Source: Flavobacteriia bacterium
GTDB taxonomy: Bacteria > Bacteroidota > Bacteroidia > Flavobacteriales > Schleiferiaceae
NCBI GenBank assembly: GCA_013373425.1
Contig: JABXHW010000034.1
Span: 1 to 34,838 of the forward strand
Direction of reading: 5' to 3'
DNA: 34,838 nt
Below the pieces are notes generated by a model. That model was not told the origin of the DNA, searched no databases, and worked only from the letters and a program-made list of their open reading frames with translations. This document shows positions 3,119 through 19,908 of the stretch, piece by piece; the stretch's first letter is position 1; each line of letters starts with the position of its first letter. The position numbers and the translations under genes were made by a program.

Positions 3119-5473
3119 TTAAAGCGAAAGCTCTATTCCGAATAAGTAGTTGAGTGGTGCCTGTGGGTAAAACCACACAGAGCTTCCATACACATAGCCG
3201 TTCGAAGCATACTCACGACTGAACAAGTTGTTCGCCATGACGTACGCTCGAACATCACCAATGCCTTCAACTTGTCTCGTAAAGGAAAGGCGAGCGTCTG
3301 TGATGAAATAGGAGGGGAGGGTTAAGCTCACGTCACCGGTATTCGACAAGTATTGCTTGCCTACATAACGAGGAATGAGTTCGAGTTTGAAATCGCTAAC
3401 GTTGAACTCAAAGTTCACATTGGCAATAATTGATGGAGAGTATGCAATTGGTGTATTTCCCAAGTTCTGGGTTGATGAATCACCAACGCTCACGATGTAA
3501 TTGATGTTCTGATTTTGAGACAGTGTCAAGTTCTCGCGAATGGTGAGAAGATTACTCACTTTCCAAGCCGATGAAAGTTCAATACCCATGCGGTAGCTTT
3601 CACCGACATTCTCACGAATTGGGTAGCCTACATTGTCGAGCTCACCTGTAAGAACCAACTGGTCAGTGTAATACATATAATATCCATTGGCGCTCCATGA
3701 GAAGTTCAGGATAGATCCTTCGTATCCCAATTCAACATCTTGTAACTGCTCCGGACGAGGAGCCTCGCCACCAACAGCATTCAAGTAATCTTTTCGATTA
3801 GGCTCTCGATTCGCCATGGCGTAACTGGCATAAACGTTCCCACCACTTTTCGTTCGATACGACATCCCCACTTTTGGATTGAAAAATGTCAGTTGATCTT
3901 CAAAAGTGAAGATGAAGTTCTGCTCTTCCGTTCCGTCGCCGTTATAGGCTACGTTTCTAATTTGCAAATCTGCGTAAGCCGACAAACGTGAATTGATGGA
4001 GTATTCAGCTTTCGCATATGTGTTCCAATCGGTCTTCACACTGTTGTTCAAATAGAACTGATCTTTTGGCAAACTTCCACTGGCATATCTGGCCCAAAGA
4101 ATCGTTCCATAGTGGTCACCATCGTACTGCGACCATGCGCCACCAATTACAACGCGAAGATCATCCCATGTTCCTGTAACATTCGCGAGGGCCCCATAGT
4201 AGTGATTGTCGAGCCACAAGCGACGAGCTAAATCTGTGCTGTTGATTGTATCGCCACCAGAAATAATCGGCGTTAGACCGTAGTCTGCAAAACTCTGACC
4301 TTGCTGGAATTCTTGGTAGTAACCTGCGCCTCTTGTGTAGAATCCGGATACGCCCAGGTTCCAAGTGTTATTCAATTCGTGGTTAACGTGGAGCTGGTAG
4401 TAATCCTGCCCGTAATTGTCCACTTGATCTTCGTAATAGTCAACAACATTCCAGTTATCATCGTAAATCGCGCCTGCCCAGTTGAATGTTGGATCGGCCT
4501 CGTAGGTTGCTGAGTCGGTTCCGTACCACGCTTGATAAGTTCTTTCACGACCGCCAAAAACGACTGCATTAACCGTTGTTTTTTCAGCTTGATAACCAAC
4601 GGATAGGTAGTACGATCTAAGGTTACTGCTCGCTCGATCTATCCATCCATCGCTTAGAATTCTCGATGCACGAGCATCAATGGTCCAGTGATTATTGATG
4701 AGGCCACTACCGAAGTTGATGGTGTAGCGCTGGGTATTGAAAGAACCACCGCCTAAGTGAATGTCGGCATAAGCCTCTTCGCTGAAGCTTTTCGTTTGCA
4801 TATTGATACTACCGCCGAATGCGCCAGCTCCGTTGGTAGATGTTCCCACTCCTCGCTGCACTTGAAGCTGAGAAACGCTCGAAGCCAAGTCCGGCGTATT
4901 TACCCAAAAGACGCCCTGCGATTCGGCGTCATTCACGGGCACACCGTTGATGGTAACATTGATTCGACTTTGGTCGCTTCCTCGAATTCGCAGACCGGTA
5001 TATCCAATACCCGCACCCGCGTCTGAAGTGGTGACCACAGATGCCGTGTTCTCCAAGATGTAAGGCATGTCGCGAGCAACATCCTGCTGCTCAATGTCCT
5101 CCTCGTTTAGATTCGATTTTGCGAATGGGGCGAGCGAGGATGCGCGAATGGCAGTAATCTCTACTTGATTGAGCGTGTTGCTCAATGGAGAAAGGTAGAT
5201 GATCATTCCCTCTTCCCACGCGCTAATGGTTTGTGATGCATAGCCTACTCGATTTACTGTGAGAGTTGACGTTGCGCTTCGCAAGTTGACAGTGAAATAG
5301 CCATCCGCTGATCTCTCGGTGAGTTCGGTTAAACACTCATCTGCATTTCTACAGAACTGTGGATAGCTTACCGGTTCTCCGGTCTCTCGGTCAAGGACTC
5401 TACCGCTGATGCTCGTCTGCGAATAGGCGACGGCACTCAATGCGATAAGTCCAAGCATGAACAATTGCTTCAT
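3119..5473 (-). CDS. TonB-dependent outer-membrane receptor, TPP-riboswitch controlled (thiamine-type uptake)
   Basis: Outer-membrane beta-barrel transporter energised by TonB, 784 residues. Signal peptide at 1-19 (MKQLFMLGLIALSAVAYSQ), carboxypeptidase-like Ig domain about 20-105 (ISGRVLDRETGEPVSYP), plug about 110-240 with GLRIRGSDQSRINVTINGVPVND and NGAGAFGGSINMQTKS, then a 22-stranded-type barrel. The ATG at 5473 is preferred over the in-frame TTG at 5506, because the TTG would add a second hydrophobic run and lies in the riboswitch expression platform. A complete TPP aptamer lies 58 nt upstream, so substrate is inferred to be thiamine, its phosphates or a precursor; THI-box-controlled receptors of this sort are known in Bacteroidota. 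The neighbouring YkoF-like and kinase genes agree. Substrate is inference, not seen directly. Confidence 0.9.
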   Translation of the reverse strand: MKQLFMLGLIALSAVAYSQTSISGRVLDRETGEPVSYPQFCRNADECLTELTERSADGYFTVNLRSATSTLTVNRVGYASQTISAWEEGMIIYLSPLSNTLNQVEITAIRASSLAPFAKSNLNEEDIEQQDVARDMPYILENTASVVTTSDAGAGIGYTGLRIRGSDQSRINVTINGVPVNDAESQGVFWVNTPDLASSVSQLQVQRGVGTSTNGAGAFGGSINMQTKSFSEEAYADIHLGGGSFNTQRYTINFGSGLINNHWTIDARASRILSDGWIDRASSNLRSYYLSVGYQAEKTTVNAVVFGGRERTYQAWYGTDSATYEADPTFNWAGAIYDDNWNVVDYYEDQVDNYGQDYYQLHVNHELNNTWNLGVSGFYTRGAGYYQEFQQGQSFADYGLTPIISGGDTINSTDLARRLWLDNHYYGALANVTGTWDDLRVVIGGAWSQYDGDHYGTILWARYASGSLPKDQFYLNNSVKTDWNTYAKAEYSINSRLSAYADLQIRNVAYNGDGTEEQNFIFTFEDQLTFFNPKVGMSYRTKSGGNVYASYAMANREPNRKDYLNAVGGEAPRPEQLQDVELGYEGSILNFSWSANGYYMYYTDQLVLTGELDNVGYPIRENVGESYRMGIELSSAWKVSNLLTIRENLTLSQNQNINYIVSVGDSSTQNLGNTPIAYSPSIIANVNFEFNVSDFKLELIPRYVGKQYLSNTGDVSLTLPSYFITDARLSFTRQVEGIGDVRAYVMANNLFSREYASNGYVYGSSVWFYPQAPLNYLFGIELSL

Positions 5474-5474
5474 G

Positions 5475-5503
5475 ATAATTGAAATTATCACGAATAACAG
5501 GGG
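5475..5503 (-). promoter_or_regulatory. probable riboswitch expression platform
   Basis: Two elements lie between the TPP aptamer and the ATG at 5473 on the minus strand. CCCCTGT (5503-5497) is perfectly complementary, 7 nt, to ACAGGGG (5610-5604) in the 5' strand of aptamer helix P1, so it could form an anti-P1 helix without ligand. GATAATT and AATTATC (5489-5474) form an inverted repeat ending one base before the ATG and could hide the start region. No terminator with a U-tract is present, which suggests control at translation initiation. The pairing is read from sequence; function is inference. Confidence 0.5.
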
Positions 5504-5528
5504 CAACTATTCGCTTGGTGTTTTAGTA

Positions 5529-9522: not shown

Positions 9523-9948
9523 TTACCGATTTGTAATTCGGATTCGGTCTCCCAGGTAATCGACTTGATATTGAAGGAGGGGATAGGTGCTCTCACCTTC
9601 AGTTACGGATCCGTCGAAAAGAAGGAATCGGGTGTCGTCGCAAGGACATTCTAGGAAAGTATCTTCTACAACATTCAATAATCCGCAATCGCGGGAGTAA
9701 TGATCTGGGCAAGCACGCTCATAAGCGACCCAATCGTTGCCGTCGTTGTTGTTATATCGGCGGTAAATCACGAGACCCTTGTAGCCTGCATCGTAGTATA
9801 TATGCCCGCCGATGAAGTTTATGGCATACGCCGAAGGGTTGTTCAAATAGATATACTCATCAACGAATACATTGGGTATTTGCTGAGGGATATCGCTCTT
9901 GCATGCGATGAAAAAAATCGGCAGCGCCAAAAAAAGTTTTCTAAGCAT
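9523..9948 (-). CDS. Rieske-like lipoprotein without a full [2Fe-2S] ligand set
   Basis: A 141-residue exported protein. Signal peptide MLRKLFLALPIFFIA followed by C16 in a lipobox-like context (FIAC), so probably a lipoprotein. The second half looks like the Rieske fold: VAYERACPDHYSRDCG, then FLECPCDDTRFLLFDGSVTEG and YPLLQYQVDYLGDRIRITN. A true Rieske protein needs C-x-H and C-x-x-H; here the first is CPDH and the second CPCDD, so both pairs deviate and the second histidine is missing. Similar ligand-poor Rieske-like lipoproteins occur in Bacteroidota, to my knowledge without assigned function. The promoter element lies so close to the ATG that the mRNA should be leaderless. Confidence 0.8.
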   Translation of the reverse strand: MLRKLFLALPIFFIACKSDIPQQIPNVFVDEYIYLNNPSAYAINFIGGHIYYDAGYKGLVIYRRYNNNDGNDWVAYERACPDHYSRDCGLLNVVEDTFLECPCDDTRFLLFDGSVTEGESTYPLLQYQVDYLGDRIRITNR

Positions 9949-10083: not shown

Positions 10084-10116
10084 TTGGTGTGGCAGGTGAT
10101 TTTCTTGTTATATTTA
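10084..10116 (+). promoter_or_regulatory. candidate promoter of the TonB/secreted protein/PorV triad
   Basis: TTG (10084-10086) and TATATTTA (10109-10116) are 22 nt apart; the latter differs from TAnnTTTG in the last base. The predicted leader is about 40 nt. This is the best candidate in the 213-bp gap between 9949 and 10161, which otherwise shows nothing obvious. Confidence 0.4.
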
Positions 10117-10161: not shown

Positions 10162-13100
10162 ATGATGAAACGAATACTCACATTAATTCTTGTGACAGTT
10201 TCCGCAGGTTTGTGGGCGCAGACCCAACCTGGCTCCTTAAGAGGAACTGTAACTGATGCTGAAACGGGCGAGCCCCTATTTCAGATTGTGGTTGAACTCC
10301 GAGATGGCAATGAAGTTGTCCAGAGAGTGTCTACCGATTTTGACGGTAACTATAATATCGTGGCTATTCAGCCAGGTACGTATAATGTAGTTGTGAAAGG
10401 TGGTCTGAACTACAATGACTACACCGTTGGAGGTATCAGTATTGCAGGTAACAAGACCACGGTGATTAACGCAGAGATGACCTCTAAGTCCAATGAGATT
10501 GGCGAGATTATCATTGAGTGGGAAGCGCCGCTAGTCGACGAAGAAAAAACAGGTAACACGACTACCATCGGACCAGAAGCTCTGGCGCGTGTGGCAACTC
10601 GTGGTACTGCTTCACTATCATCACTCGCATCCGGGGTAGCCGTTCAAGACGGTGGTGCTCCAATCGTGCGTGGTACTCGTTCCGATGCGAACGTTACCTT
10701 TATCGATGGTGTGAAGGTTAGAGGTAGCGCAAGTCTTCCTCAGAACGCGATTCAATCTGTTGAGATTATCACTGGTGGTACACCAGCACAGTATGGTGAT
10801 GCATTGGGTGGTGTAACTAACATTACCTCAAGAGGTCCTTCATCACAGTTCTTTGGTGGAGTTGAGCTTCTTTCTTCATCTCCATTCTTCTTTGATGATC
10901 CATCGCACTACAACTTGGCAGCGGTTACACTAGGTGGACCGGTTTACAAGAGAACACTTCCAGGTGGTGAGAAGCAAACGATTATCGGATTCCTTTTAGC
11001 ATCTGAATTCCAGTATCAATATGAGCCACGTCCATTCGCTACAGACGTTTACCGTGTGAACGAGGACAAGTTGGCTTCAATGGAGCAAACTCCAATTCGT
11101 CCTTCTAACGTAGGTCAAGGTGTTCTTAACGAGGGTAACTTCCTTCGTTCAGATGACTTGGAAGTTATTCCGGCACGTATTAATAATGATACACGTACGC
11201 TCCGTGTGAACGGTAGCTTGAACATCAAGCCATCGCAATACACCAACTTAGTGATCGGTGGTCGTTACATCTACACTCGTGGAATGAACGGTGGTTTCGC
11301 AAGTTCTTTGATGAACTGGAAGAACAACTCTGAGTCAATCGCTTCGGATGCATCTGGATTCGTTCGCTTTACTCAGCGCTTCAAGACAGATTCAACATCT
11401 TCTTTGGCAAACTTCTTCTACCAAATTCAAATGGACTACACCCGTAACAATCGTACGACGTGGGATCCAATCCACCAAGACAACATCTTCCGTTACGGAC
11501 ACATCGGTAAGTTCACTACTTATCAGCAACGTTTCTACACCTACACTACTGATGACGCTACAGGTATTCAAGCTTGGGTGCAGCAGTTGTATCAAGATAC
11601 TGCGGTTTACTTCGAGCCAAGTGAGTACAACCCAGTGAGATCGAACTATACTTCTGCTTACTACCAGTTTGTAGAAGATGGACGTATCAACAACAACAGC
11701 TTCAACCTTAACAACATTCGTCAAGGTGGTGGTTTGATTAACGGTGACAACCCACAAAGCATCTACGGTTTGTTCCAAGCAGTTGGTGCTAACCAGTCAG
11801 GTTACGGCCGCACTCGCAACTCTCAGTTCCGTGTGACTGCACAAACTACTTTCCAGATTATCGACAAAGACAATCCGGATGAGACGCACAACTTGACTGC
11901 AGGTTTTGAGTTCGAGCAACGTATCGACCGTTCTTACTCACTTGGAGCTAACGGACTATGGCAGCAAATGCGCCTCTTGCAAAACCAGGCGATTTTGCAG
12001 CTCGACTTGGACAATCCAATTCTCATCTACGACGAGAACGGAGTATTCCAAGATACTATCAACTACAACCGTGCGTATGACCCGAGTGTACCACGTACAT
12101 TTGACCGTAACGTTCGTCGCGAGTTGGGTCTAGATCCAAACGGAACAGATTACATCGACATCGATGCTTATGATCCTGACTTCTTCAGCCTCGACATGTT
12201 CAGCGCTGACGAATTGGTGAACGTAGGTGGTGCTCAGTACGTGACTTACTACGGTTACGATTACCTGGGTAACATCCAGTCTGGAAACCCAACGTTGAAT
12301 GACTTCTTCACTGCTACAGATGATAACGGTTCATTCACTCGTCCGATTCCAGCTTTCCAGCCACTTTACATCGCTGGTTACATTCAAGACCGTTTCCGTT
12401 TCCGCGGATTGAACTTCAACGTAGGTGTTCGTATCGACCGTTTCGATGCTAACCAACCCGTATTGAAGGATCCATATTCACTTTACCCAGTTCGCAACGC
12501 GGGCGAAGTTCGTGGAATGGCTATCGGAAGCGAGATTCCAGGTTCAATTGGTGACGATTATGTGGTTTACGTGAACGATGTAAACAACCCAACAGGTATT
12601 ACAGGCTACCGTGACGGTGACCAGTGGTACGATGCAGCGGGTAACCCATTGGCTAACCCGAAAGAGATTGCAGATATCTCTGGTGGTCAAGCTCAACCAT
12701 ATGTAATTGGTACTACAGCTAACGGTCGCCCAGACCTTAGCCCTGACGGATTCGAAGATTATGTTCCACAGGTTACATTCTCTCCACGTTTGTCATTCCA
12801 GTTCCCAATTACTGATGAAGCGAAATTCTTCGCTCACTACGACATCCTCGTTCAACGTCCAAGCCCAGGATTGGCTCGTTTCAATCCATTCGACTACATG
12901 CAGTTGGACATCTTGAACAACGCTGGTTTCCTAGCGAATCCAAACTTGAAGCCACAGCGCACAACTGACTACGAATTGGGTTACGAGCAATTGTTGACCG
13001 AGAAATCACTTCTTTCTATCTCTGCATTCTACAAGGAGCAGCGTGACTTGATTCAGACAGTGAGCATCAACGAAGCTTACCCTATCACTTACGTGACTTA

Positions 13101-13815
13101 CGGTAACCGTGACTTCTCGACTGTAAAAGGTTTCACTGGTCAGTACGAAATGCGTCGCGTAAGCAACGTTCAAATGCAGGTGAGCTACACGCTTCAGTTT
13201 GCTGACGGGTCTGGTTCAGGTCCTAACTCTGGTGCGAACCTCGCACGTTCAGGTCAGCCGAACTTGCGTTACATCCTTCCATTGGATTTCGATACTCGTC
13301 ACATTGTATCTGCTAACATCGACTACCGTTATGGTTACGGTCCTAACTACAACGGGCCATTGATGGGCGAGAAGAGAATTCTCGAAGGATTCGGAATTAA
13401 CATTCTTGCACGTGGTATCTCTGGTACTCCATACAGTGCTCGTGTACGTGCATTCGAATTGACGGATGGTGCTTCAGGTGTACCATTGACAGGACAAATT
13501 AACGGTTCACGCCAGCCATGGACATTCACTGTTGATGCAACAATCAACAAGGAGTGGAGATTGAGTGGCGGCAAGAGCTTCGATGTTTACCTAGCGATCT
13601 TGAACGTATTCGATACGCGCAACGTATTGAACGTGTATGCTTACACTGGCGCTCCAGACGATGACGGTTGGTTGGCTTCTCCTCAGGGACAGACTTCCAT
13701 CGCCTTCCGTGCAGACGCACAGTCTTACGCCGACTTGTATGCTGTAGCAGTGAATAGTCCATTTAACTATTCTCTTCCACGTCGTATGCGTCTAGGTATT
13801 CGATATAACTTCTAA
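10162..13815 (+). CDS. TonB-dependent receptor with carboxypeptidase-like domain (triad gene 1)
   Basis: A large outer-membrane receptor of 1217 residues. Signal peptide 1-20 (ending LWAQ), an Ig-like carboxypeptidase regulatory domain about 22-110 (LRGTVTDAETGEPLFQIVVEL), a possible TonB box around 118-135 (EIIIEWEAP), a plug about 140-240 with APIVRGTRSDANVTFIDGVKVRG and PAQYGDALGGVTNITSRG, and a very long barrel with extended loops. It ends RRMRLGIRYNF, the aromatic end expected of an outer-membrane barrel. Start is ATG at 10162, or the next codon 10165. Codons are strongly biased (CGT for Arg, AAC for Asn, TTC for Phe), as in the two following genes. It is followed at 27 nt by the 1339-residue secreted protein and then the PorV-like gene; substrate unknown, and a role as anchor or channel of a surface complex is possible. 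Confidence 0.9.
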   Translation: MMKRILTLILVTVSAGLWAQTQPGSLRGTVTDAETGEPLFQIVVELRDGNEVVQRVSTDFDGNYNIVAIQPGTYNVVVKGGLNYNDYTVGGISIAGNKTTVINAEMTSKSNEIGEIIIEWEAPLVDEEKTGNTTTIGPEALARVATRGTASLSSLASGVAVQDGGAPIVRGTRSDANVTFIDGVKVRGSASLPQNAIQSVEIITGGTPAQYGDALGGVTNITSRGPSSQFFGGVELLSSSPFFFDDPSHYNLAAVTLGGPVYKRTLPGGEKQTIIGFLLASEFQYQYEPRPFATDVYRVNEDKLASMEQTPIRPSNVGQGVLNEGNFLRSDDLEVIPARINNDTRTLRVNGSLNIKPSQYTNLVIGGRYIYTRGMNGGFASSLMNWKNNSESIASDASGFVRFTQRFKTDSTSSLANFFYQIQMDYTRNNRTTWDPIHQDNIFRYGHIGKFTTYQQRFYTYTTDDATGIQAWVQQLYQDTAVYFEPSEYNPVRSNYTSAYYQFVEDGRINNNSFNLNNIRQGGGLINGDNPQSIYGLFQAVGANQSGYGRTRNSQFRVTAQTTFQIIDKDNPDETHNLTAGFEFEQRIDRSYSLGANGLWQQMRLLQNQAILQLDLDNPILIYDENGVFQDTINYNRAYDPSVPRTFDRNVRRELGLDPNGTDYIDIDAYDPDFFSLDMFSADELVNVGGAQYVTYYGYDYLGNIQSGNPTLNDFFTATDDNGSFTRPIPAFQPLYIAGYIQDRFRFRGLNFNVGVRIDRFDANQPVLKDPYSLYPVRNAGEVRGMAIGSEIPGSIGDDYVVYVNDVNNPTGITGYRDGDQWYDAAGNPLANPKEIADISGGQAQPYVIGTTANGRPDLSPDGFEDYVPQVTFSPRLSFQFPITDEAKFFAHYDILVQRPSPGLARFNPFDYMQLDILNNAGFLANPNLKPQRTTDYELGYEQLLTEKSLLSISAFYKEQRDLIQTVSINEAYPITYVTYGNRDFSTVKGFTGQYEMRRVSNVQMQVSYTLQFADGSGSGPNSGANLARSGQPNLRYILPLDFDTRHIVSANIDYRYGYGPNYNGPLMGEKRILEGFGINILARGISGTPYSARVRAFELTDGASGVPLTGQINGSRQPWTFTVDATINKEWRLSGGKSFDVYLAILNVFDTRNVLNVYAYTGAPDDDGWLASPQGQTSIAFRADAQSYADLYAVAVNSPFNYSLPRRMRLGIRYNF

Positions 13816-13842
13816 TCAGCAAGAACTAAAAGCGATAATATT

Positions 13843-16800
13843 ATGAGTAAATCATTGCGCATATTGCCTTGGGTACTGAGCATCTTTGCGGTGTTCTCTG
13901 CCGAGGGTCGCGAAATCCCAGGACTTCCTTCTTCCTCTGGAAAGATGGAGTCAAACAAATCAGTAGAGGAACTCTGCCAGCCTGCACAGGCTCAGTCCGA
14001 CTTGAACATCAACAATGTTCGTGCTACCATCCTCGGTGGTGGTGACATGTGGTGGGACTTGAACCAGGCGCGTTACGAAGTTCCAAAAGGTTCAAACCGT
14101 CACTCCATGTTCGCCGGTGCACTTTGGCTCGGTGGTGTGGATGAAGGTAACCAGTTAAAGTTGGCTGCGATGACTTACCGTCAGCGTGGTAACGACTACT
14201 GGCCTGGTCCACTTTCAACCGACGGATTGGCTACCGTAACGAAGGATGTATGTGACCGTTACGACCGTCACTGGATCATCTATCGTTCACAAGTAGATAT
14301 TCACAAAGCATGGTTGGAGTGTCAGGATGATCCTGATTGTGACGCTGGAGTTGAATTTCCAGGTTACGAAAGCAACATTCCTGATATCATCTTGAATTGG
14401 CCTGCACACGGTGTAGATGGTGAGCTTCCTTATCGCTTGGCTCCGTTCATCGACCGTGATGGTGACGAACTTTATGATCCTTACGTGGATTACCCAGCGT
14501 ACGATATCGATCGTGCATATGACTGTCAGTTGAAAGACGTTGACCTTCTTTATGGTGACCAAACTATCTGGTGGGTGTACAACGACCGTGGTAACGTTCA
14601 CTCTGAGACACAAGCCGGTGCGCTTGGTTTCGAGATTCGTGCACAAGCTTTCGCGTTCACGACGAACGACGAAATCAACAACATGACTTTCAATAACTAC
14701 CGCATTATTAACAAGTCTACTTTCCGTCTTACTAATACGTACTTCTCAACTTGGTTCGACCCAGATTTGGGATTTGCACAAGACGACATCATTGGTTGTG
14801 ATATTCCTCGTGGATTGGGATACTGTTACAACTCTGACTTCGAAGATGAAGGACCTTTCGGTTACGGTGAATATCCACCAGCTGTAGGTTTCGACTTCTT
14901 CCAGGGTCCATTTGCTGACTACTTCGATGGTCGCGATAACGACCGTGATGGTTGTGTGGATGGTGTTCGTGATGAAAACGGAAACTGTGTAGCTGAGGAT
15001 CCATCAGTTGGTCGCAACGAGCGTATCATCATGTCCGGCTTCATGTACTACAACAACACAGGTGACCCTGCTTCAGGTAACCCTAACTCTGCCGCTGAAT
15101 TCTATAACTACATGCGTAGCCGTTGGAAGAACGGTAACCCATTGGTAGTAGAAAACCCAAGCGGTCAGGGTAACACTTCAAACGGTGACGGTTATACTCC
15201 AGATGGTTCAGGTTTGGCAACATTGTTTGCTTACCCAGGTAACACATTTGATACTACAGGTGTAACTCAGCCTACTGCTGATCAGAACTGGTTTGAGTCT
15301 CCATCTAACCAGGAGGATAAGCGTGGTCTTCACAACGCGGGTCCATTCTCTTTGGCACCAGGTGCATTGAACTTCATTACTACAGGTGTGGTTTGGGAGC
15401 GTAACTTCCAAACTCAGAACCTCTTCGCTTCTGTGGAAGAAGTGATTATCGCTGACGATAAAGCACAGCAATTGTTCGACAACTGTTTCCAGGTGTTGAA
15501 TGGTCCTGATGCTCCAGATGTTGAACTCATCGAGCTCAACGAAGAGTTGGTTCTTACTCTGAACTACTCTAATGCAGCGAACAACGTGAACTTGGATTAC
15601 CGTGAAAAGGATCCATTGATTCCAGTTCCTCCAGGGAAAACTGAAGCTGAAGTATTGGCTGAGAATCCAGACTACTTCGACTACCGTTTCGAAGGTTTCC
15701 AAATCTTCCAGTTGGCGAACGAGAACGTTTCTATCGCTGACCGTTACGATCCAGCTCAGGCTCAGTTGATCGCTCAGTGCGACATCCGCAACGGTGTTAC
15801 TCAATTGGTGAACTGGGAACTTGATCCAGACATTAACCAATTGGTTCCTTCTGATATGACTTTGACCTCGGGTAACGATGGTATTCAGATGTCATTCAGC
15901 ATTAAGGAAGATGCATTTGCTACAAGTACTAAGACATTGCGTAACCACAGGGAGTACTACTTCACTGTAATCGCATACGCAGTAAATGAATTTGAAGTAT
16001 TCGATCCATTCAGCTCTCCAGACGGACAGCGCAAGCCATTCTTGGCAGGTCGTAACAACATTCGCACATACACTGGTATTCCACACCGCACTGAAGCGGA
16101 GTCAGGAGGCCAAGGTTTGAATGCAGATTACGGCGACGGTATCGAGATTACTCGTATCGAAGGTGTAGGTAACTCAGGTATTGCACTTGATTTCAACCAA
16201 GATACTGAGGATGAAATCGTAAGAGACTACAATGCAGAGCGTGCTACTTACACTCAGGGTGCAGGTCCAGTTAACGTGAAGATTGTAGATCCTAGAAATG
16301 TGCCTGCAGGTAACTACACAATGAAGTTCAATGGTGTAGATGACTTTGCTACTTGGGAGCTTTACACTTCAAGCGACACTGTTCTTTCACGTCGTGCGAT
16401 TAGCTTCTTGAACGAGCAAATCATTCCTGAGTTGGGTATCTCTGTTACTGTTGAAAATGTTCGCCAGCCAGGTGATGACACTAACGGTGTATTCGACAAC
16501 GGTATCATTCTTACCGACATCAGCTTCACGGACCCAACTGCACCATGGTTGACCGGTGTTGCAGATAACGATACGTATACTCCGTTCAACTGGATTCTTG
16601 CTGGTACGAACACGAATGCTACTGAGGCTCCAGCTGATATTTATCCAGATCAAGGTGGTGACCCTAAGCAGTTCTTTGAAACAATGGTTGGTGGTACATG
16701 GGGACCATTCTACTATGCTAGCCAACTAGGACGTGGTACTTCCTCTGGTTTCCCAGTCTTCGGTATGGGACCTGCTGACTCGGTTTCTGCTGGTCAGAGA

Positions 16801-17862
16801 TATCCAATCCGCTCACTACACAGTATCGATGTGGTTTACACGGATGATGCTACGAAGTGGACTCGTGTTCCAGTATTCGAAATGGGTGAAGATCCAAACT
16901 TGACTGAAGGTGGAGCTGAGAAGCTTACTCTTCGCCAGGCTGACGGTTGGAGCTTGAACAACGGACAGCTCGTTCGCGACGCATCTGTACGAGGCTGGAG
17001 TTACTTCCCAGGTTATGCAATCGACCTTGAAACTGGTCAGAGATTGAACATGGCCTTTGGTGAGAACAGCTGGATGGTTGCAGACCGCGGTAACGATATG
17101 CTTTGGAACCCTACTTCTACAGTTGCGGTAAGTCCAGGTGATAACATTACTGGTGGTTTCCGCTTCGGTGGTCAGCATTACCTCTACGTATTCGCGCCAT
17201 CTGTGATTCGCGGTATTACGCCAAATGATATCTCTTACAAAGGAGATGATCCAACAGCAAACCCGATGTACAGTTACTTGAACAACTTGAACACTCCGCT
17301 TAACAAGCGTGAAGTATTCAAAGGTGTTATGTACGCGAATATTCCATTGGTGACTCCATCGTTCCACGATATGGATCCATACACGAATATGCCTTCTGAG
17401 GTTCGCACTCGCATCCGAATGAACCGCCCATACGACACTTACCAACCTGCGAATACTACTCCGCAGAACGGTGGTAACCCATTGTATGAGTTCAGCACAA
17501 CCAACTTTGCTACAGACAAGAACAACTTGACGATTGCAGAGAACGAATTGGAAAACATTCGAGTGGTTCCTAACCCATACTATGCGAGAAGTGCGTACGA
17601 AACTTCACAGCTCGAAAGCACAGTGAAGATTACAAACCTTCCGCAGGTTGCGACAATCAGTATCTTCTCAGCGAATGGTACTATGATTCGTCAAATCAAT
17701 AAGAACAACAGCTCTACTTGGTTGACTTGGGACTTGACTAACGATTACGGTGTGCCTATCGCGAGTGGTGTTTACATCATTCACGTGGACGCTCCAGGAA
17801 TTGGTGAGCACATCCTCAAGTGGTACGGAGCATTGCGTCCTGTTGACTTGAACGCATTCTAA
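13843..17862 (+). CDS. large secreted surface protein with FlgD-like C-terminal domain (triad gene 2)
   Basis: A 1339-residue exported protein. The signal peptide is about 1-22, followed by a mature start rich in Ser and Cys. The N-terminal region has NNVRATILGGGDMWWDLNQARYEVPKG, a pattern I recognise from large unnamed Bacteroidota proteins. Asp-rich loops resembling calcium sites occur at DRDGDELYDPYVDYP (about 206-220) and DGRDNDRDGCVDG (about 363-375). The C-terminal ~95 residues (NIRVVPNPYYARSAYE, VKITNLPQVATISIFSANG, GVPIASGVYIIHVDAPG, ending LKWYGALRPVDLNAF) form a FlgD/T9SS-like Ig domain but end in an unusual motif instead of the canonical basic T9SS tail. Its genes lie between a TonB receptor and a PorV-like gene with 27- and 28-nt spacers, pointing to surface delivery with the PorV-like partner. 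Molecular function is unknown. Confidence 0.85.
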   Translation: MSKSLRILPWVLSIFAVFSAEGREIPGLPSSSGKMESNKSVEELCQPAQAQSDLNINNVRATILGGGDMWWDLNQARYEVPKGSNRHSMFAGALWLGGVDEGNQLKLAAMTYRQRGNDYWPGPLSTDGLATVTKDVCDRYDRHWIIYRSQVDIHKAWLECQDDPDCDAGVEFPGYESNIPDIILNWPAHGVDGELPYRLAPFIDRDGDELYDPYVDYPAYDIDRAYDCQLKDVDLLYGDQTIWWVYNDRGNVHSETQAGALGFEIRAQAFAFTTNDEINNMTFNNYRIINKSTFRLTNTYFSTWFDPDLGFAQDDIIGCDIPRGLGYCYNSDFEDEGPFGYGEYPPAVGFDFFQGPFADYFDGRDNDRDGCVDGVRDENGNCVAEDPSVGRNERIIMSGFMYYNNTGDPASGNPNSAAEFYNYMRSRWKNGNPLVVENPSGQGNTSNGDGYTPDGSGLATLFAYPGNTFDTTGVTQPTADQNWFESPSNQEDKRGLHNAGPFSLAPGALNFITTGVVWERNFQTQNLFASVEEVIIADDKAQQLFDNCFQVLNGPDAPDVELIELNEELVLTLNYSNAANNVNLDYREKDPLIPVPPGKTEAEVLAENPDYFDYRFEGFQIFQLANENVSIADRYDPAQAQLIAQCDIRNGVTQLVNWELDPDINQLVPSDMTLTSGNDGIQMSFSIKEDAFATSTKTLRNHREYYFTVIAYAVNEFEVFDPFSSPDGQRKPFLAGRNNIRTYTGIPHRTEAESGGQGLNADYGDGIEITRIEGVGNSGIALDFNQDTEDEIVRDYNAERATYTQGAGPVNVKIVDPRNVPAGNYTMKFNGVDDFATWELYTSSDTVLSRRAISFLNEQIIPELGISVTVENVRQPGDDTNGVFDNGIILTDISFTDPTAPWLTGVADNDTYTPFNWILAGTNTNATEAPADIYPDQGGDPKQFFETMVGGTWGPFYYASQLGRGTSSGFPVFGMGPADSVSAGQRYPIRSLHSIDVVYTDDATKWTRVPVFEMGEDPNLTEGGAEKLTLRQADGWSLNNGQLVRDASVRGWSYFPGYAIDLETGQRLNMAFGENSWMVADRGNDMLWNPTSTVAVSPGDNITGGFRFGGQHYLYVFAPSVIRGITPNDISYKGDDPTANPMYSYLNNLNTPLNKREVFKGVMYANIPLVTPSFHDMDPYTNMPSEVRTRIRMNRPYDTYQPANTTPQNGGNPLYEFSTTNFATDKNNLTIAENELENIRVVPNPYYARSAYETSQLESTVKITNLPQVATISIFSANGTMIRQINKNNSSTWLTWDLTNDYGVPIASGVYIIHVDAPGIGEHILKWYGALRPVDLNAF

Positions 17863-17890
17863 GAAAGGTTTAAAGCATAGATACTAGACT

Positions 17891-18919
17891 ATGAGAAAGA
17901 CGATATATAGCACAATGTTGGCAGTCGCGGTAGCATCTACCGCGGCCTTTGCCGGCAACCCTCAGCGTGCTGGTTCGGCCGGTGCAAATGAATTGTTGAT
18001 CAACCCATGGGCGGGTAGCTCTGGATTGGCGAGCTCAAGCATCTCCACGGTGCGCGGCTTGGAGTCAACATTCATGAACATCGCTGGTTTGGCCTTCACC
18101 GAGAAAACTGAAGTTGGATTTGCCAATACACAATGGCTCGTGGGCGCAGACATCTCTGTAAACAGTGGAGCCTTGGCACAACGCGTAAGCGACGTGGGCG
18201 TATTGAGCATATCTGTTCAGTCGTTCGACTACGGTGAGTGGGATGTAACTACTGAAGATCTTCCAGAAGGAGGTGCAGGTACAATTTCACCTTCGGCATT
18301 AGCTTTTGCATTGGGTTACTCTCAGATGTTTACCACCAACATTTACGGTGGTGTAAATATCAAGGTATACAACTCGAACATCTCTAACTTGAATGCTGCT
18401 GGTGTAGCAATCGACGCAGGTGTGCAGTACCATGAAGGTGATTACCACTTCGGAGTTACCTTGAAGAACGTAGGTCCTTCATTCGGTTATACGGGTGACG
18501 GTTTGGATCTTGCTCTTCCAGTACCACAAGGTGGATACGCGCAGAGCTTTAGCTCTCGTTCTGCTGAGTTCGAACTTCCTACGCAGCTCGCAATTGGTGT
18601 TGGTTACGATTGGCACATTGTAAGAGACGTTCACCGCATCACCTTCACCGGGATGTTCGCGTCGAATGCGTTCGAAAAGGATAACTACTTGCTCGGTGCT
18701 GAATACGGTTGGAGGGATTGGTTCGCAGTTCGCGCTGGATACCGTATTGACGATAACCGCGCTGACGGAAGATCTACCTCCGCATTGGCAGGTCCAACTG
18801 CTGGATTCTCTGTGAATGCTCCACTGGGAAGCTCAACGAACTTCAAGTTGGACTACGCTTATCAGTTGACCAATAACTTCGGTGGTATCCACACTTTCGG
18901 AGGTACTATCTCACTCTAA
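17891..18919 (+). CDS. PorV/PorQ-family outer-membrane protein (triad gene 3)
   Basis: A 342-residue outer-membrane barrel of the PorV/PorQ (UPF0164) family. Signal peptide 1-21 (MRKTIYSTMLAVAVASTAAFA), then AGSAGANELLINPWAGSSGLASSSISTVRGLESTFMNIAGLAF, the typical N-terminal hairpin of this family in which a few early cells of sequence describe position and asparagine-rich turns. Repeated amphipathic strands follow, with NVGPSFGYTGDG and GAEYGWRDWFAVRAGYRIDDNR, and the protein ends GGIHTFGGTISL. In type IX secretion, PorV is an outer-membrane shuttle that carries cargo from the translocon to the attachment complex; this is a paralogue, not necessarily PorV itself. Being 28 nt after the 1339-residue secreted protein suggests it is the dedicated partner. 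No clear terminator precedes the greA promoter. Confidence 0.88.
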   Translation: MRKTIYSTMLAVAVASTAAFAGNPQRAGSAGANELLINPWAGSSGLASSSISTVRGLESTFMNIAGLAFTEKTEVGFANTQWLVGADISVNSGALAQRVSDVGVLSISVQSFDYGEWDVTTEDLPEGGAGTISPSALAFALGYSQMFTTNIYGGVNIKVYNSNISNLNAAGVAIDAGVQYHEGDYHFGVTLKNVGPSFGYTGDGLDLALPVPQGGYAQSFSSRSAEFELPTQLAIGVGYDWHIVRDVHRITFTGMFASNAFEKDNYLLGAEYGWRDWFAVRAGYRIDDNRADGRSTSALAGPTAGFSVNAPLGSSTNFKLDYAYQLTNNFGGIHTFGGTISL

Positions 18920-18969
18920 TATAACTCGTTAAGTCTGTAGAAGATATCTACGATTACACAACGAAATTG

Positions 18970-18977
18970 TATATTTG
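18970..18977 (+). promoter_or_regulatory. -7 promoter element of greA
   Basis: TATATTTG matches TAnnTTTG exactly. The predicted transcription start near 18982 coincides with the base of a 10-bp hairpin at 18983-19009, and is about 55 nt before the greA ATG at 19037. No TTG at the -33 distance. Confidence 0.6.
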
Positions 18978-18982
18978 CAAAG

Positions 18983-19015
18983 AAATGAGGCCATTTGATG
19001 GTCTCATTTTCTTTT
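18983..19015 (+). terminator. hairpin plus U-rich tract in the greA leader (terminator/attenuator)
   Basis: AAATGAGGCC (18983-18992) pairs with GGTCTCATTT (19000-19009) over 10 bp, one G-T pair, with a 7-nt loop; the T-rich stretch TTTTCTTTT follows. It would end transcripts of the PorV-like operon, for which no other terminator is seen. Because it starts one base after the predicted greA transcription start, it would also act on greA's own transcript as an attenuator. Confidence 0.65.
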
Positions 19016-19036
19016 GAACACTACTACAGAACGAAC

Positions 19037-19510
19037 ATGTCAAATTTATCATACTATACTCCTGAAGGCCTTAAGAAGCTTCGTGACGAACTCGATCAAA
19101 TGAAGAGTATTGAGAGACCAAAAATTTCTCAGCAGATCGCAGAAGCACGCGATAAGGGAGATTTGTCAGAGAACGCCGAATATGACGCTGCGAAAGAAGC
19201 GCAAGGTCTTCTCGAAATGAAGATCGCCAAATTGGAACAAGAACTTTCCAATGCGCGTATCATCGACGAATCTCAGCTCGATACTTCTAAAGCTCTCGTA
19301 CTTTCAAAAGTGAAGATTAAGAACCTCCAGAATGGAATGGAGATGACCTATACCTTGGTCAGTGAGAAGGAAGCCGACCTCAAAACAGGCAAGATTTCTG
19401 TCACTTCTCCGATTGGAAAGGGCCTCCTTGGAAAGAGTGTAGGAGATGTAGCTGAAGTTCAAGTTCCAAGTGGAACGCTTAAATTCGAGGTAATCGATAT
19501 CTCAAGATAA
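19037..19510 (+). CDS. greA: transcription elongation factor GreA
   Basis: Binds in the secondary channel of RNA polymerase and stimulates cleavage of backtracked RNA, rescuing arrested complexes. The 157-residue length is standard. The N-terminal coiled coil contains YYTPEGLKKLRDELDQMK and the conserved tip with acidic pair ARDKGDLSENAEYDAAKEAQG (Asp and Glu at the tip position magnesium). The C-terminal FKBP-like domain includes SPIGKGLLGKSVGDVAEVQVPSGTLKFEVIDI. The ATG at 19037 is chosen because a longer frame from 18995 would start inside the leader hairpin and add residues not seen in the family. A HIT protein gene follows 5 nt after the stop. Confidence 0.97.
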   Translation: MSNLSYYTPEGLKKLRDELDQMKSIERPKISQQIAEARDKGDLSENAEYDAAKEAQGLLEMKIAKLEQELSNARIIDESQLDTSKALVLSKVKIKNLQNGMEMTYTLVSEKEADLKTGKISVTSPIGKGLLGKSVGDVAEVQVPSGTLKFEVIDISR

Positions 19511-19515
19511 ACCTC

Positions 19516-19908
19516 ATGGCGAGCATCTTTACCAAAATCATCAGCGGCGAAATCCCTTGTCACAAAGTGGCAGAGACGGAAGATGCTATCGCCTTTCTCG
19601 ATATTCGTCCCCTCAAAAGAGGGCATACCCTCATTGTTCCTAAGCAGGAAGTGGACAAACTTTTCGACTTACCGCACGACACCTACACTAAGGTGATGGA
19701 TTTGGCCTATAAAGTGGGTCAGGCTATGGAAAAGTCGATCCCTTGTAAGCGCATAGGTGTTGCCGTACTAGGCCTCGAAGTGCCTCACGCGCATGTTCAT
19801 CTCATTCCCATCGACTCCGAGCGCGACCTCAATTTTGCTAACGACCGAATGTCGTTTACAGATGAAGAGTGGGAGCAGACCGTTAAGGATATTCAAGCAG
19901 GACTATAA
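19516..19908 (+). CDS. HIT family nucleotide-binding hydrolase (Hint-like)
   Basis: A 130-residue histidine-triad protein. The start ASIFTKIISGEIPCHKVAE, the middle DIRPLKRGHTLIVPKQEVD and the triad HAHVHL near residues 95-100 are diagnostic of the Hint branch, which hydrolyses purine nucleoside phosphoramidates and aminoacyl adenylates. It starts 5 nt after the greA stop codon, so the two form an operon; greA-HIT pairs are common in Bacteroidota. The cellular substrate is unknown. No terminator is visible after it; the next 142 bp contain the 7-bp repeat region. Confidence 0.95.
   Translation: MASIFTKIISGEIPCHKVAETEDAIAFLDIRPLKRGHTLIVPKQEVDKLFDLPHDTYTKVMDLAYKVGQAMEKSIPCKRIGVAVLGLEVPHAHVHLIPIDSERDLNFANDRMSFTDEEWEQTVKDIQAGL

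Follow-up and report, generated by a model that had tools for sequence, protein, structure and literature searches.

The 34,838-nt contig JABXHW010000034.1 of a Flavobacteriia bacterium (assembly GCA_013373425.1; Bacteroidota, Flavobacteriales, Schleiferiaceae), analysed over its whole length and called here the window, carries three consecutive genes that encode a TonB-dependent receptor (p1), a large exported protein (p2) and an outer-membrane barrel of the PorV family (p3). We put at about one in two the probability that these proteins form one complex on the surface of the outer membrane, in which the type IX secretion system (T9SS) would export p2, p3 would hold it and both would lie over p1. 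The proposal is built on the recurrence of the trio, the C-terminal domain (CTD) and extended tail of p2, the position of p3 within its family and the co-occurrence of p2 with SprA, the T9SS translocon.

Adjacent and in the same order, the trio was found at 24 of 24 close loci (the best matches, one per genome) and at 65 of the 75 named loci whose flanks could both be seen, where genes up to 400 nt apart counted as adjacent; L082, from the cultured species Thermaurantimonas aggregans, is one locus with the trio. The named loci are the 80 top-ranking ones among 569 confirmed, five being excluded from the neighbour count because a contig end lay too near, and several are near-copies of one another (e.g. 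L074-L076). The trio was also present at 29 of 31 distant loci, whose p2 is about 28–38% identical over the N-terminal half and which were hand-picked, non-randomly, from the phylum-wide match list for the contig room around them. The two exceptions are L170, which stops short of showing p1, and L168, which begins inside a p2 gene that is followed by p3 and holds two lone p2 genes besides. The three samples partly share organisms; the recurrence that they document exceeds what chance would give. A panel of 13 genomes comprised five with all three genes, seven with no gene of the trio at ortholog level, where matches were weak or partial, and one with p1 at a contig end. A reading of this DNA made without database searches (the sequence-only reading) had supposed that similar triads occur in many Bacteroidota, and the three families, far from being rare neighbours, were indeed found side by side in other genomes.

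The receptor and the barrel

p1 passed the Pfam cut-offs of PF00593 (TonB_dep_Rec_b-barrel), PF07715 (Plug) and PF13620 (CarboxypepD_reg), and p3 reached 146.6 bits against NF033709 (PorV_fam), whose cut-off is 90; the TonB receptor and the PorV/PorQ-like barrel recognised by the sequence-only reading are both borne out by these matches. The N-terminal and plug residues of p1 are conserved in an alignment with 64 relatives, and a stretch ahead of the plug was picked out by eye as a putative TonB box. The SusC/RagA model TIGR04056 gave no match to p1 at E≤0.1, though the same library's model matches another receptor, and phmmer returned no relatives of p1 or p3 from the Protein Data Bank (PDB) at E≤0.1 and E≤1. 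It is plausible, as the sequence-only reading had it, that p1 would be the base of the complex.

p3 stayed below the cut-off of the models of all three named members of the PorV family: PorV proper (NF033710, 69.8 bits, cut-off 250), PorQ proper (NF033711, 76.2 against 220) and PorV2 (NF052325, 39.2 against 325). In a midpoint-rooted tree, 72 barrels encoded at p2 loci (41 near and 31 distant, with at most 40 p3 rows taken from named loci) were split from 31 true PorV proteins by one branch with a support of 96; the PorQ of the host and the barrel of contig C11 described below stand on long branches and their placement is unsure. The host genome itself encodes SprA, a true PorV, a true PorQ and PorU, and its porU is directly followed by porV, the same client-then-barrel order as in p2-p3.

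On contig C11 of the same genome (L225 386-7612; L173 6349-11383), the gene of a 942-aa TonB receptor is directly followed by that of another PorV-like barrel. The surroundings of this pair comprise two lipoprotein-like genes, judged by eye, and three more proteins that look exported, of which one has a sorting domain above the cut-off, one such a domain below it and one no Pfam match. A receptor-barrel pair of this type is also found in two relatives (L226, L227), which suggests that receptors are linked to PorV-like barrels more widely.

The C-terminal domain and tail of p2

TIGR04183, the T9SS type A sorting domain, matched p2 at 24.1 bits, marginally above its cut-off of 23, whereas before the last ~110 residues neither Pfam nor NCBIfam gave any match at E≤0.1. 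The FlgD_ig domain of Pfam reached 19.6 bits, below its cut-off of 27. The best NCBIfam match was PorZ (NF052228), which was confined to aa 1230-1315 and at 34.3 bits lay below the cut-off of 260. TIGR04131, the model of type B domains, was not among the NCBIfam matches at E≤0.1, the presence of this model in the library being unchecked; with the same limit, the candidate that p2 is a type B substrate was set aside.

AlphaFold2 models were obtained for aa 24-760 (pLDDT 89.9, pTM 0.87) and aa 690-1339 (mean pLDDT 89.0) of p2, using alignments of 73 and 63 rows that were cut by hand from 80 and 80 after a 75% identity filter. For the second model, PorZ (5m11) was the single Foldseek match at E≤0.001 and also headed the VIA comparisons, which cover best chains only (Z 10.7, 2.4 Å, 90 aligned residues, 26% identity). 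The CTDs of PorU (6za2, Z 9.2), mirolase (8qb1, 8.3), RemA and NucA (7.7, including 8gl6) followed, and other Ig-like domains also reached Z values of 7–9. A sequence profile of p2 run against the PDB returned PorZ as its sole match (E 0.092). In its predicted fold, the CTD of p2 is closest to PorZ and then to PorU. The FlgD/T9SS-like C-terminal Ig domain of the sequence-only reading therefore stands as regards its T9SS-type character, by TIGR04183 and the PorZ-like fold, and less well as regards FlgD_ig, whose match is weak.

At the end of p2 lies the tail LKWYGALRPVDLNAF, with the sequence RPVDLNAF in the window. Lys1326 is invariant across a 20-row alignment and p2 extends 13 residues beyond it, as against 4-5 residues past the equivalent basic residue in canonical CTD proteins of the host (eight ends matched by eye, out of 98 sorting-domain matches that the host has at E≤1e-3, some of them under the cut-off). 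In solved translocon structures, a conserved lysine near the CTD end contacts PorV (PMC10994853; papers are cited here by PMC number). When 112 p2 proteins were scanned with a regular expression, 13 residues followed the lysine in 86, 16 in nine, 14 in one and eight in one, 15 giving no match; the final residue is F or Y in 101 of the 112. The end R(P/Q)xD(L/V/I) occurs at 71 of the 80 named loci, and contig ends truncate three of the nine others, whereas distant members word the tail differently (KKRVQLNTF, QEQQILDRF) with a final Phe as the usual last residue. In the host genome the motif occurs once, at p2, and PorU has a short C-terminal end. The claim that p2 lacks a canonical T9SS tail thus holds for the residues past the lysine, though not for the domain that precedes them, which is of T9SS type.

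The N-terminal domain of p2

p2 begins with a hydrophobic signal without a lipobox, as judged by eye, and without a cysteine near the predicted signal end. That p2 might be a SusD-type surface lipoprotein was rejected for want of a lipobox and of any SusD family match in the Pfam scan. The fold predicted for aa ~45-551 is that of the β-sandwich N-domains of glycoside hydrolase (GH) enzymes of families GH94, GH116, GH15 and GH65, the best VIA matches being 9ju0 (Z 19.6, 3.1 Å over 250 residues), 1ug9 (Z 18.9) and 1lf6 (Z 18.7). Foldseek gave E 2.5e-6 for aa 24-760, with TM-scores of just 0.15-0.25 over the whole multi-domain model. The likeness to GH enzymes in these models is one of fold only. 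Both models are mostly β-strands with short helices, aa ~745-1235 being viewed only within the larger models.

Two Asp-rich loops, DRDGDELYDPYVDYP and DGRDNDRDGCVDG, in the N-domain (window 13843-15495) resemble calcium-binding loops by eye. Contig C65 of the same genome (L172 6117-9605) encodes two short relatives of the N-domain in tandem, of 558 and 559 aa, which end in sorting domains scoring 21.9 and 25.5 bits, respectively (cut-off 23).

Association of p2 with the T9SS

Among 395 genomes of the phylum, 202 contain p2 matches at E≤1e-3 and 149 at E≤1e-10. SprA was found in all 149 of the latter, compared with 304 of the 395 overall, a figure that includes one match below the family cut-off. 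In a set of 60 relatives, p2 is present in 48, of which 46 have SprA. Because the host encodes SprA, PorV, PorQ and PorU and because of the 149/149 co-occurrence, SprA is likely the channel that exports p2. The T9SS export of p2, as predicted from sequence and model, is well supported by its CTD, the fold of this domain and the co-occurrence with SprA. The sequence-only reading had offered p3 as the dedicated exporter or anchor of p2. The anchor is supported by the PorZ/PorU-like end of p2, given what a review says of the CTDs of those two proteins (PMC10202324); with SprA, PorV, PorQ and PorU all encoded, p3 as the exporter was set aside as unneeded.

Gene layout, codon use and surroundings

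The coordinates of the trio and its parts are collected in Table 1. The genes run head to tail on the + strand with gaps of 27 and 28 nt, confirming the co-directional arrangement noted from the letters. The strong codon bias ascribed to all three was confirmed too: the effective number of codons is 40.0 for p1, 39.1 for p2 and 45.2 for p3, compared with 43.9 for AHCY and 51.7-63.9 for the other 14 of the 15 further open reading frames (ORFs) of the window that were measured.

Table 1. Positions in the window of the three genes and of the regions of p2
Feature	Position	Strand	Basis
p1, TonB-dependent receptor, 1217 aa	10162..13815	+	ORF; CarboxypepD_reg, plug and barrel
p2, exported protein, 1339 aa	13843..17862	+	ORF; signal, N-domain, middle region, CTD and C-terminal tail
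p2 N-domain, aa ~45-551	13975..15495	+	predicted β-sandwich fold (AlphaFold2 model)
p2 T9SS-type C-terminal Ig-like domain, aa ~1236-1329	17548..17829	+	TIGR04183; AlphaFold2 model
p2 C-terminal tail past Lys1326 (WYGALRPVDLNAF, then stop)	17821..17862	+	conserved in the p2 family
p3, PorV-family outer-membrane barrel, 342 aa	17891..18919	+	NF033709; tree

The trio is directly followed in the window by greA and the gene of an HIT protein (18919-19908). Among the 49 loci with wide flanks, 41 have a greA-like gene and 40 an HIT-like gene in those flanks, families having been assigned by eye. Ahead of p1, TATATTTA at 10109-10116 resembles the Bacteroidota -7 promoter element, as does TATATTTG at 18970-18977 ahead of greA. 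A divergent ORF of 141 aa lies 5' of p1 (9523-9948) and has no Pfam match at E≤0.01; a small ORF family, to which the 141-aa ORF may or may not belong, is present at 26 of the 49 wide-flank loci. The window contains another TonB-dependent receptor (795 aa, 3119-5506), on the opposite strand and with ordinary codon bias.

Several p2 genes stand without the other two. Where their neighbours were scanned, these included genes for UvrD helicases (L128, L130), a TPR protein (L090), a glycerol-3-phosphate dehydrogenase (L121), a DHDPS-family protein (L096), an SprB-repeat protein (L095) and a further sorting-domain protein (L108). In the organism UBA852, a trio (L098) coexists with a lone p2 copy (L108 9866-13897). 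This lone copy and that of L189 retain the RPxDL tail.

Discussion

How would the three proteins work together? We suppose that p1, p2 and p3 would reach the periplasm by Sec signals and that the BAM machinery would insert p1 and p3 into the outer membrane, which p2 would cross through the T9SS translocon SprA by virtue of its C-terminal Ig-like domain. As a specialised relative of PorV, p3 would then take the CTD from the translocon and retain it uncleaved, on the model of PorV keeping PorU and PorQ keeping PorZ. The extra tail RPVDLNAF could be an address read by p3 or a shield of the CTD against PorU. Held by p3, p2 would cap the extracellular face of p1 as a capture subunit and might do for p1 what a SusD-type lipoprotein does for SusC, except that p2 would be delivered by the T9SS. 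What the analysis establishes is the gene unit, the families of its products, the predicted folds and the co-occurrence with SprA; the route of export, the retention by p3 and the docking on p1 are inferred. More speculatively, the N-domain might bind a ligand that p1 would import with TonB energy; that the ligand is of the sugar type, perhaps a glycan or glycoconjugate, is likewise speculation. We advance tentatively, at somewhat less than even odds, that p3 represents a widespread third type within the PorV family whose client keeps its CTD, that p2 would be the T9SS-built extracellular subunit of a TonB uptake complex and that the tail, RPVDLNAF or a variant of it, would route p2 to p3 instead of to PorV and the sortase PorU.

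Several observations weigh against the surface complex. p3 falls below the Pfam PorV cut-off (26.1 bits against 27) and marginally passes that of PorP/SprF (PF11751, 22.9 against 22.3, far under its PorV-family score), and p2 stays below the cut-off of PF18962, Por_Secre_tail (13.9 against 27). In the fold comparison, the Z of 9.2 for PorU is level with those of unrelated Ig-like domains (8jmw 9.0, DUF3244 8.4), so that PorZ alone stands out. The trio is not always complete: in the ten remaining named loci, p2 stands by itself eight times and has just p1 or just p3 beside it once each, one close relative carries a second, lone p2 (L189 8144-12190) besides its trio (L019), and L168 7280-14987 holds two tandem lone p2 copies with no adjacent receptor or barrel. 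Such copies imply that p2 can do without a partner next to it, or that p3 acts in trans. As to SprA, the co-occurrence figures ignore phylogeny, four weak p2 matches (E 8.7e-6 to 9.1e-4) come from SprA-less genomes (G088, G123, G169, G288) and no SprA was found in two p2-bearing relatives that are 70% (G021) and 76% (G040) complete, where incompleteness of the assemblies may explain its absence.

Lone p2 copies would suit a reading of p2 as an ordinary type A cargo of the T9SS, handled by the true PorV and relieved of its CTD by PorU, with p3 doing another job, for example as a FadL-like pore that serves the receptor, and the gene order reflecting no more than co-regulation. The match of p2 to TIGR04183 fits this view, the host does encode a true PorV and PorU, and the two short N-domain relatives, at 25.5 and 21.9 bits, end in type A sorting domains around the cut-off of 23. 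We nonetheless consider it unlikely, because the samples link p3 with p2 and the tree sets it apart from PorV, the extended tail of p2 is conserved, and the CTD fold is nearest to that of PorZ, whose own CTD is retained (PMC10202324). Export of p2 by the receptor itself, with p3 as just an anchor, would follow the precedent of Oar and PopC (PMC6434023) and suit the CarboxypepD_reg-plug-barrel architecture that p1 shares with Oar, as well as the two incomplete relatives with p2 in which SprA was not found. This architecture is weak evidence because it dominates among Bacteroidetes receptors (PMC6434023), and p2 bears a T9SS-type CTD, accompanies SprA in each of the 149 phylum genomes with a clear p2 and occurs in copies without p1, all of which makes receptor-mediated export very unlikely.

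The trio might also be a module for the structure or biogenesis of the cell surface, comparable to PorQUZ or the extracellular canopy of BAM in Bacteroidota, in which p1 would pass TonB energy to p2 or anchor it, and not a complex for nutrient uptake. The low effective codon number, suggesting high expression, fits such a module; the greA-like and HIT-like flanks (41 and 40 of 49 loci) are as for a core locus, and the trio is retained in some genomes of 1.6-2.0 Mb (G034, G012, G033). Against this, it was not found in SprA-bearing genomes from other families of the order (G037, G039, G041, G044, G047), a further one (G038) shows a weak end-domain match only and G026 misses the whole trio. Its absence from SprA-bearing genomes indicates that the trio is not needed by every T9SS-bearing cell, and the receptor plug is conserved, so that we give this explanation little credence.

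If the surface complex is real, the T9SS and the TonB receptors, both large systems of the outer membrane in Bacteroidota, would be joined in one conserved unit, and receptors would obtain surface subunits by secretion, besides the lipoprotein route. In P. gingivalis, PorV holds PorU and PorQ holds PorZ (PMC5562754), and the CTDs of PorU and PorZ are not removed; a review raises the hypothesis that the cognate PorV-like barrel may keep a CTD from being cleaved (both PMC10202324). The trio offers a natural test of how such barrels shield CTDs from the sortase. It is widespread and, from its codon bias, probably abundant. What appears new here is the joining of a PorV-family/CTD pair to a TonB receptor, the kinds of component being already known; among open-licence PMC papers, searches for the trio, for its parts and for T9SS-linked receptor complexes listed none naming the receptor-p2-PorV-like trio.

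Comparison with known systems

The N-terminal β-sandwich of the GH94, GH116, GH15 and GH65 enzymes has the same fold as aa ~45-551 of p2 (Z 14.4-19.6 in the 50 rows shown), at 5-14% identity in those rows. The catalytic (α/α)6 helical barrel of GH94, GH116 and GH15 was not recognised in the p2 models, the middle region not having been searched alone. In Myxococcus xanthus, Oar and PopC resemble the trio in the architecture of the receptor and in the link between a receptor and an exported protein (PMC6434023), whereas the T9SS-type CTD and the PorV-family barrel belong to the trio. Type B substrates have dedicated PorP/SprF shuttles that are often encoded adjacent, and in Flavobacterium johnsoniae the barrel gene likewise lies directly downstream of that of its substrate (PMC12618676, PMC9143113); the end of p2, however, is type A-like, and p3 scores 146.6 bits for the PorV family against 22.9 for PorP/SprF. 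SusC-SusD and other receptors with a surface lipoprotein offer an analogy, in that a receptor gene is paired with that of a large partner predicted to be surface-exposed. They differ in that p2 has neither lipobox nor SusD match and would be delivered by the T9SS, and in that p1 gave no SusC/RagA match at E≤0.1.

The attachment complex of Porphyromonas gingivalis shares with the trio a large surface protein whose CTD, of a fold similar to that of p2, is held by a PorV-family barrel, as in PorZ-PorQ and PorU-PorV (PMC5562754, PMC10202324). The likeness of p2 to the PorZ and PorU models is confined to the C-terminal domain, and the trio has in addition the extra C-terminal tail of p2 and a TonB receptor.

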